Shown here piece by piece: positions 50,554 to 52,718 of a stretch of DNA of 64,000 nt. Both the position numbers and the translations under genes were made by a program. Source of the DNA: Aequorivita capsosiphonis DSM 23843 (GTDB lineage: Bacteria; Bacteroidota; Bacteroidia; Flavobacteriales; Flavobacteriaceae); the NCBI RefSeq assembly GCF_000429125.1, contig NZ_AUBG01000010.1:211645-275644 (forward strand), in the 5' to 3' direction. The notes below the pieces were generated by a model. The model saw only the letters and a list, made by a program, of their open reading frames with translations. It was not told the DNA's origin and did not search any database. Within the stretch, counting starts at the first letter, position 1; each line of letters opens with the position of its first letter.

Positions 50554-51225
50554 ATGGGAAAACTCTATCTAGTACCCACACCAATTGGCAATTTAAAAGA
50601 CATGACCTTTCGCGCTGTTGAAGTGCTTAAAGAAGTAGATTTAATACTCGCCGAAGACACCCGAAACAGCGGAAAACTTTTGAAACATTTTGAGATTGGT
50701 ACCCAAATGTACTCCCACCATATGCACAACGAACACCGAACGGTGGAAGGAATTGTAAAACGTATTCAAAATGGCGAAAATATTGCCTTGATAAGCGACG
50801 CGGGAACTCCAGCCATCAGCGATCCTGGTTTTTTATTGACGCGTGCCTGCGTAGAAGCCGGTATTGAAGTGGATTGTTTGCCCGGAGCTACAGCTTTTGT
50901 TCCTGCATTGGTAAACAGTGGTTTTCCAAATGATAAATTTGTATTTGAAGGTTTTCTGCCGGTGAAAAAAGGCCGTCAAACCCGCCTCGAACTTCTAGCC
51001 GAAGAAACAAGAACCATCATTTTCTATGAATCGCCGCACAAACTCTTGAAAACTTTGGCTCAATTTGTTGAATATTTCGGAGCTGAAAGATCAGTTTCTG
51101 TTTCTCGTGAGATTACAAAACTTCATGAAGAAACCGTGCGTGGAACTGCTGAAGAGGTTTTAAAACACTTCGAAAACAAACCACCAAAGGGGGAAATTGT
51201 GGTTGTGGTTTCCGGCAAGAAATAA
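50554..51225 (+). CDS. rsmI: 16S rRNA 2'-O-methyltransferase (cytidine 1402)
   Basis: The 223-residue enzyme methylates C1402 of 16S rRNA using S-adenosylmethionine. It has TPIGNLKDMTFRAVEVL at the start, the DAGTPAISDPG motif near residue 85, and LPGATAFVPALVNSG, all typical of RsmI and the tetrapyrrole methylase fold. Confidence 0.96.
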   Translation: MGKLYLVPTPIGNLKDMTFRAVEVLKEVDLILAEDTRNSGKLLKHFEIGTQMYSHHMHNEHRTVEGIVKRIQNGENIALISDAGTPAISDPGFLLTRACVEAGIEVDCLPGATAFVPALVNSGFPNDKFVFEGFLPVKKGRQTRLELLAEETRTIIFYESPHKLLKTLAQFVEYFGAERSVSVSREITKLHEETVRGTAEEVLKHFENKPPKGEIVVVVSGKK

Positions 51226-51240
51226 GGTAATTCATCAAAA

Positions 51241-51325
51241 TTGTTTTTCTTAAAAAACAATAATTAGCCTTAATTGTTCTTTAAAGAAAACAATTCTTGC
51301 TATATTTGTTCTTCATCAAGAACAA
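51241..51325 (+). promoter_or_regulatory. Array of three 20-bp palindromes before the DUF4143 ATPase
   Basis: Three related palindromes occur at 51241-51260, 51274-51293 and 51306-51325, each beginning TTGTT and ending AACAA. Their starts are 33 and 32 bases apart, about three helical turns, so all would face the same side of the DNA. The third is the most regular (arms TTGTTCTT and AAGAACAA around CATC) and ends one base before the chosen ATG at 51327. Its first three bases are the end of a TATATTTG (51301-51308), which matches the -7 consensus. The arrangement looks like an operator that blocks or controls this promoter. RNA hairpins are an alternative. Confidence 0.65.
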
Positions 51326-51326
51326 T

Positions 51327-52523
51327 ATGAACGATCTATTTATAATCAGCGAACGCATATTAGACGCTCTGGACACCCGAAAAGAGCGGTATCTTTTAAA
51401 AGAGATTGATTGGTCACAGCGACTTATAGGCGTAAAAGGCGCGAGGGGTTCAGGGAAAACCACCTTATTACTTCAACAGATAAAATTTCACCTTTCACCG
51501 TCTGATAAAGCACTTTACACTTCACTAGACAACCTTTATTTTTTAAATCACACACTGATTGGTTTGGCCGAGGAATTTGCCTTACAAGGGGGTACGCATC
51601 TGTTTTTAGATGAAGTTCACAAATACCCCAATTGGTCGCGCGAGCTAAAATTGATTTACGACCAATTACCTTCATTAAAAGTAATATTTACCTCTTCTTC
51701 CATTCTAGAAATAAACAAAGGAGAATCTGACCTAAGCCGACGTGCAGTAAAATATATTTTAAAGGAAATGTCCTTCCGGGAATATTTGAATATCAAACAC
51801 AATTTGGATTTGCCTTCTTTCGACTTTGAATATATTCTGAAAAATCAAAAGGAAGTGGCCTTGGAACTTAAAAAACAAGTTGAATTCCCTGTTGCAGAAT
51901 TTAAGGAATACCTTAAATACGGTTGCTACCCCTATAGTTTTGAAGGAATCGATAATTATTACCCTAAGCTTTTAGACACCATTAATCTCATGTTGGAAGT
52001 AGACGTAAGTTCTGTGGAAAACATGTCTTTTCAGGAAAGTCGAAAAATAAAAAAGCTGCTCGTGGCCATTGCACAGAGTGCTCCTTTTACACCTAATGTT
52101 TCCAAACTTAGTGAACGTTTAGGGTTTTCGAGGAATTTTTTATTGAATTCCCTTAAAATTTTAGACCGTGCCGAACTCATTCACGAATTTTTCACGCAAT
52201 CAAAAGGAATAGGAGCATTCACCAAACCCGAGAAGTTATACCTTAACAATACTAACTTAATTTATGCCCTCGCCCAAAGTCAATTAGAGGAAGGAACGCT
52301 GCGTGAAACATTTTTCGCCAACCAGATGAAGCATCTTTATGAAATTCATTTAGCCAAAAAAGGAGATTTTATCGTAAACCGAAAATATACGGTTGAAATA
52401 GGCGGGAAAAACAAAACCACCCAACAGATTACAGGCGTCAAAAATGCGTACGTGTTAAGAGATGATATTGAAATTGGGGCATTAAAGATAATACCGCTTC
52501 ATCTCTTTGGGCTCATGTATTAA
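51327..52523 (+). CDS. AAA ATPase with DUF4143 C-terminal domain
   Basis: The 398-residue protein has Walker A GARGSGKTTLL near residues 38-48 and Walker B LFLDEVH, an AAA ATPase domain, then a winged-helix-like segment (SKLSERLGFSRNFLLNSLKI) and a C-terminal DUF4143 domain of the PD-(D/E)XK type with GDFIV followed by EIGGK. The ATG at 51327 is preferred over a TTG 30 bases earlier. Such proteins are widespread in Bacteroidota, often in many copies, with unknown purpose. The three palindromes in front suggest it may control its own expression. Confidence 0.85.
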   Translation: MNDLFIISERILDALDTRKERYLLKEIDWSQRLIGVKGARGSGKTTLLLQQIKFHLSPSDKALYTSLDNLYFLNHTLIGLAEEFALQGGTHLFLDEVHKYPNWSRELKLIYDQLPSLKVIFTSSSILEINKGESDLSRRAVKYILKEMSFREYLNIKHNLDLPSFDFEYILKNQKEVALELKKQVEFPVAEFKEYLKYGCYPYSFEGIDNYYPKLLDTINLMLEVDVSSVENMSFQESRKIKKLLVAIAQSAPFTPNVSKLSERLGFSRNFLLNSLKILDRAELIHEFFTQSKGIGAFTKPEKLYLNNTNLIYALAQSQLEEGTLRETFFANQMKHLYEIHLAKKGDFIVNRKYTVEIGGKNKTTQQITGVKNAYVLRDDIEIGALKIIPLHLFGLMY

Positions 52524-52644: not shown

Positions 52645-52718
52645 CTTTAAACAACGGAAAGTTTTAAAAAAGAAAAAAGTTCTTAATTTTTTAAAACAAC
52701 CACCATTGGGCTAAATTA

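Follow-up and report, generated by a model that had tools for sequence, protein, structure and literature searches.

The Locus

The window (the whole stretch of DNA analyzed, 64,000 nucleotides) carries a gene for an AAA_14/DUF4143-type ATPase of 398 aa (P0001; 51327–52523, + strand), whose upstream neighbor at 50554–51225 on the same strand we take, from its sequence, to be rsmI. Three 20-bp palindromes, defined by sequence and array extraction and assigned to neither strand, stand in front of the ATPase gene: P3 at 51241–51260 (TTGTTTTTCTTAAAAAACAA; 8/8 arm pairs, center −76 from the start codon), P2 at 51274–51293 (TTGTTCTTTAAAGAAAACAA; 6/8, center −43), and P1 at 51306–51325 (TTGTTCTTCATCAAGAACAA; 8/8, center −11). 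Their starts are separated by steps of 33 and 32 bp, or about three helical turns, and reading the sequence from 51241 to 51325 confirmed both the palindromes and the spacing that a first-pass annotation had reported. That annotation also placed the last palindrome over a −7 element and ending one base short of the start codon, which the letters bear out: the first three bases of P1 are the last three of TATATTTG, a Bacteroidota-type −7 element at 51301–51308 (+ strand; a promoter by consensus only, TANNTTTG being presumably the consensus of this type), and the ATG at 51327 lies one base past P1. By position, then, an operator-like site covers the gene's own promoter, with the promoter assigned by consensus only. 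P1 has 8 of 9 pairs outside its 4-bp core, versus a mean of 5.2 in 200 dinucleotide shuffles (p = 0.005). An alternative TTG start at 51297 is also open; relatives use the ATG equivalent to 51327. On the other side of the gene, an AT-rich inverted repeat (gttttaaaaaa / attttttaaaac, 52660–52699) lies 3′ of the ATPase and may be a terminator.

The palindromes could also be read as RNA hairpins in the leader, acting by attenuation or translation control. Because P1 lies directly against the start codon, the mRNA probably includes its right arm. A transcript made from the −7 element would, on the other hand, contain neither P2 nor P3, which are both upstream of that element, and hairpins would not explain the covariation with a DNA-reading helix that is described below. 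We regard this explanation as scarcely credible.

P0001 passes the curated cut-off of Pfam AAA_14 by a wide margin (90.5 bits versus 27, E = 1.2e-25), with the ATPase domain at residues 31–154 (51417–51788, + strand; Walker A GARGSGKT). We take COG1373 to comprise these AAA_14/DUF4143 ATPases (PF13173, PF13635). The first-pass name DUF4143 suits the family, in which 57 of 62 aligned members match that profile at E ≤ 0.1; for P0001 it is weak, the score falling below the Pfam cut-off (18.3 versus 28.1 bits, E = 0.002). P0001 matches PADLOC's PDC-S01, an abundant candidate defense protein (E = 1.5e-22, a profile match applied without PADLOC's own coverage threshold), and 62/62 aligned relatives match the profile PDLC04789 at E ≤ 0.001.

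An AlphaFold2 model of P0001 (mean pLDDT 90.2, pTM 0.89) contains the winged helix that the first-pass annotation had suspected, at residues 235–288 (52029–52190, + strand), in the order helices 235–251, 258–265, and 269–281 and strand 285–288; HTH profiles such as HTH_11 match in 26/62 members (E ≤ 0.1). The third of these helices (residues 269–281; 52131–52169, + strand) is the predicted recognition helix, as judged from the model and from the covarying residues 270, 273, 277, and 274. The C-terminal domain (52224–52520, + strand) had been called PD-(D/E)XK. It finds no fold match and is PD-(D/E)XK-like by motif only, with D347, E357, and K363 invariant in 62 members, in keeping with the PDC-S01 description (PMC12988326). 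No convincing sequence relative was found in the PDB (best E = 0.025), and a fold search with the model returned general AAA+ matches only, at low TM-scores, with no closely related structure among them; even the top matches, to AAA+ initiators and motors such as DnaA, RuvB, and ORC, are weak.

Relatives and Their Genomic Sites

A scan of the named genomes yielded 418 relatives, the best 80 of which were retained, and the upstream 170 bp were compared for 78. Among these best 80 of 418, rsmI is the family's site in 14 loci, and no partner gene recurs beside the ATPase outside the rsmI neighborhood group. A genome of the same genus (G027) lacks the ATPase gene: there, rsmI directly adjoins the window's downstream neighbor, with neither ATPase nor array. 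The ATPase gene and its array thus come together. A phage-borne family was considered and rejected, as only four relatives turned up among 59 candidate stretches in viral contigs; these four contigs (L259–L262) are the only viral ones encoding ATPase relatives.

Layout of the Array across the Family

The first-pass annotation had proposed looking for the palindromes and their spacing upstream of other family genes in Bacteroidota. A similar array with a period of 32/33 bp precedes many relatives across the phylum, and the letters of the palindromes vary between genes. Averaged over 81 loci, the self-similarity of the upstream DNA is highest at lags of 32 (0.52 identity), 33 (0.45), and 64 (0.42), against a mean of 0.32. 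By a second statistic, lag 32 or 33 leads in each of three sets: robust z is 11.9 in a set of 86 loci, 11.6 in one of 78, and 18.6 in 27 loci belonging to another DUF4143 subfamily; for 215 other genes, the same statistic gives no lag above z = 1.3. The P1–P2 spacing in 87 loci, within a search limited to 31–34 bp, is 32 in 46, 33 in 32, 31 in eight, and 34 in one, and P1 is centered at −10 to −13 in 68 of the 87.

The single-locus palindrome test with a fixed 4-bp core had low power (25/84 loci at p ≤ 0.05). The conserved part being the arms, sites were instead compared within and between loci: repeats agree best within a locus (0.63), less well with the same position in another locus (0.49), and least at other lags of the same locus (0.41). 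Scored against dinucleotide shuffles, a two-site array reaches p ≤ 0.05 in 64/86 and 44/78 family loci, compared to 4/100 control genes from the same loci; taken singly, 56 of 164 family loci fall short of this level. Among distant AAA_14 paralogues, with the first Met taken as the start, 2 of 13 loci have a two-site array at p ≤ 0.05, and the clade with helix SRATVMNYIK has no clear one. Relatives with the gene and without palindromes, which the annotation had named as evidence against its proposal, therefore do not represent the general case, though a minority lacks a clear two-site array. In loci with SRATVMNYIK or a near helix (L196–L198, L200–L206), several have a TTTGC..TTTGCAAA-like palindrome further upstream.

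Of 166 family loci, 148 have TANNTTTG no more than 60 nt from the start codon. In 76 of the 166, P1 directly adjoins the start codon; 73 of these 76 have TANNTTTG within the same distance, and in 68 of the 76 the TTTG of TANNTTTG ends 6–7 nt ahead of the P1 center. Many other loci have their array upstream of the −7 element rather than over it, so that repression by cover would not be the same everywhere.

Copies elsewhere in the genomes were sought by pattern. In the 4.04-Mb genome of the window, TTGTTNTTNNNNAANAACAA matches exactly at P3 and P1 only; with one mismatch allowed, P2 and four further positions are matched as well, and the reversed-pattern control gives ten per strand. Searched in four other genomes, GCACTNTNNNAGTGC is found in nine places, seven of them before a family gene, leaving two elsewhere in the four genomes together. 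A genome may hold up to four family copies, mostly with different half-sites, as in G273 (ATGATTTT, TTGGTTAT, TTGTAAAT, and ATGAATAG). Two paralogues in G254 (L183 and L191) have the core CACT in common; addresses are thus not always private.

These layouts bear on the possibility that the ATPase is stored or activated on the array, which would serve as a platform for loading or assembly and control the promoter only secondarily. Initiator proteins sit on origin repeats, and the strict 32/33-bp phasing over two or three sites, the weak resemblance of the model to AAA+ initiators and motors, and the many arrays off the −7 element would all suit such a role. A pure platform, however, needs no overlap with the −7 element, which P1 shows in 68 of the 76 abutting loci, and neither the exact-pattern search of the window's genome nor the search of the four other genomes gave an array copy away from the promoter. 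We consider a platform quite improbable.

Half-Site Letters Follow the Predicted Recognition Helix

Covariation between half-sites and protein columns was computed on two sets. The first comprises 87 loci with two-site extraction, 71 of which (those with clean sites, G at position 3, and a long protein) entered the covariation; the further set comprises 88 loci, 86 of them usable, from which seven near-duplicates were dropped, leaving 79, with 51 in the covariation. Site extraction rewards TTG starts and does not favor any letter at position 4. G3 is present in 97% of half-sites over 99 loci, and the conservation of positions 1–3 is partly built in, because extraction gives a bonus to TTG starts. 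Two loci (L148 and L151) have half-sites TTCACAAA and ATCAATAA without the usual G3, although R269 is retained.

In the 71 loci, columns 270 and 273 are the most informative for half-site position 4: C4 accompanies N270 plus V273 in 34/34 loci, and the letter is T in 24 of the 25 without N270. Out of sample, the 51 further loci have C4 in 23 of 30 with N270 and in 2 of 21 without (Fisher p = 2.3e-6). When all 122 loci and 338 variable columns are considered, columns 270, 273, and 277 rank as the top three for position 4; they fall within helix 269–281 and are spaced like one helix face. The helix holds 12 of the 338 columns, and a random column draw would put the top three there with a chance of 3e-5. 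Column 274 ranks first for position 6. The leading columns for positions 5, 7, and 8 lie outside the helix, which counts against self-reading, and N270 occurs without C4 in 14 of 76 loci (ten with T, four with A), among them the gene in the window and its relatives in Aequorivita.

Shared descent was addressed on a tree built without residues 235–300, which requires no fewer than 19 changes at position 4 and 16 of N270. Over ten supported independent pairs, N270 and C4 differ the same way in 5.3, the opposite way in 0.1, and do not differ in 4.7; the sign test on these ten pairs alone is not significant (median p = 0.0625). When 833 column/residue traits are ranked by how they change with C4 on the same tree, N270 comes first and V273 third. 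A natural pair occupies the same rsmI site: Marixanthomonas has helix SRNFLVNSIK with TTGCTTTT and Aequorivita SRNFLLNSLK with TTGTTTTT, so that within helix residues 268–277 the two differ at 273 and 276, plus base 4.

A second subfamily shows a comparable pattern. The window genome's other AAA_14 gene (L219/L229; G000:C12:55904-57022), where 15-bp arms GGTGATTGTATTCAC and GTGAATACAATCACC flank its TATATTTG, has relatives in 72 of 295 genomes, and these too have phased palindromes, with a sharp 32-bp period and motifs other than those of the P0001 family. From 90 loci of this subfamily, 80 have a usable start and 79 were counted. A helix starting with DKN goes with GTGA in 14/14 loci, and xKN (x not D) with GTCA in 8/10, with two ties; this link was noticed before it was counted and is uncorrected for descent. 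In genes for longer AAA_14 proteins (about 480–500 aa), the −7 element is surrounded by inverted repeats of other kinds, with arms of ~22 bp in L101 and CTTATTT..AAATAAG-like arms in L095, L096, L102, and L103.

The covariation also bears on whether the array might be the operator of another regulator, acting in trans, with the ATPase gene only its target. Half-site positions 5, 7, and 8 do not point to the ATPase helix, and binding of the ATPase to the array is itself deduced from sequence. Against this, the letters of the half-sites change together with the recognition helix of the ATPase itself, no neighbor gene recurs in the 80 loci outside the rsmI group, and further operators, as a trans-acting factor's regulon would provide, are not seen in the window's genome, which holds no exact match elsewhere. 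A regulator in trans appears decidedly improbable.

A Proposed Self-Recognition Model

We think it very probable that the ATPase reads its own palindromes, which would then be the operator of its own gene, and represses its promoter. Self-recognition is proposed because the letters of the palindromes covary with the protein's own recognition helix. This is the best-supported model; its recognition part is argued from covariation and its repression part from position. The first-pass annotation had thought self-regulation or DNA processing at these sites plausible; self-regulation is supported by the covariation of helix and letters, the conserved layout, and the finding that the window's genome holds no exact copy elsewhere.

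In mechanistic terms, the winged helix would set the start of the recognition helix (residues 269–277) on each half-site TTGNNNNN, with invariant R269 probably on invariant G3, residues 270/273/277 on base 4, and residue 274 on base 6. One palindrome would be filled by two subunits, and three palindromes, three helical turns apart, would line up ATPase pairs on one face of the DNA. An occupied P1 would hide the −7 element and the presumed transcript start, silencing the gene until the protein has been consumed or, possibly, has changed its ATP state. Elsewhere in the family, site and helix would have changed together, which would leave most paralogues of a genome with separate addresses. We infer the stoichiometry, the residue–base contacts, and the roles of ATP and of the C-terminal domain.

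An extension of the self-recognition model is speculative. Each ATPase might be a guard tethered to its private array, with the bound AAA+ assembly an inactive store. Release might be triggered by an effect of an invader, such as a transcription stop, a change in supercoiling, DNA degradation, or a nucleotide shift, and might at once free the nuclease-like domain and open the promoter. We hold this reading as a whole to be unlikely. If it were true, guards that answer to different triggers could coexist in one genome thanks to their private addresses, and for much of the PDC-S01 family the helix/site code could be read off the sequence.

Comparison with Known Systems

PDC-S01, a PADLOC candidate defense protein with an ATPase and a PD-(D/E)XK-type domain, is the system to which P0001 and all 62 aligned relatives correspond by profile. 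It is described as the fourth most common defense system across prokaryotes, most such candidates await validation, and one survey counts 9,986 archaeal and 29,494 bacterial DUF4143/PDC-S01 ATPases (PMC12988326). The portion of its description at hand gives no operator or control mode (PMC12988326), and in the literature found, no tested function is reported for these ATPases. A private operator covarying with the protein's own winged helix would tell what DNA they bind, is a ready substrate for binding and ATPase assays, and suggests that DUF4143/PDC-S01 ATPases stay off until needed; the arrays also offer a wealth of natural examples from which the specificity of winged helices could be read. 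The open-access literature searched held no account of an AAA+ ATPase family repressing itself via phased, private, diverging arrays.

Helix/site covariation has been treated likewise in MerR regulators, whose contact residues are found through the mutual information that columns of the protein share with columns of the site (PMC5045206). MerR proteins are dedicated regulators (PMC5045206), whereas the ATPase family is not known as a regulator in the papers found. Compared to AAA_14/DUF4143 ATPases as a class, P0001 is alike in its AAA_14 domain, far over the cut-off, and differs in lying below the DUF4143 cut-off.

Self-repression at cognate palindromes is a known principle. Antitoxins, phage repressors, and restriction-modification C-proteins are self-repressing regulators of this kind, and RptR is reportedly another. 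In these, as proposed here, the palindromes over a promoter are read by the winged helix or HTH of that promoter's own product, and site and helix diverge together between paralogues. The ATPase family differs in that the putative reader is an AAA+ ATPase with a nuclease-like domain, encoded as a single-gene unit, and in that two or three sites recur at a fixed period of 32/33 bp.
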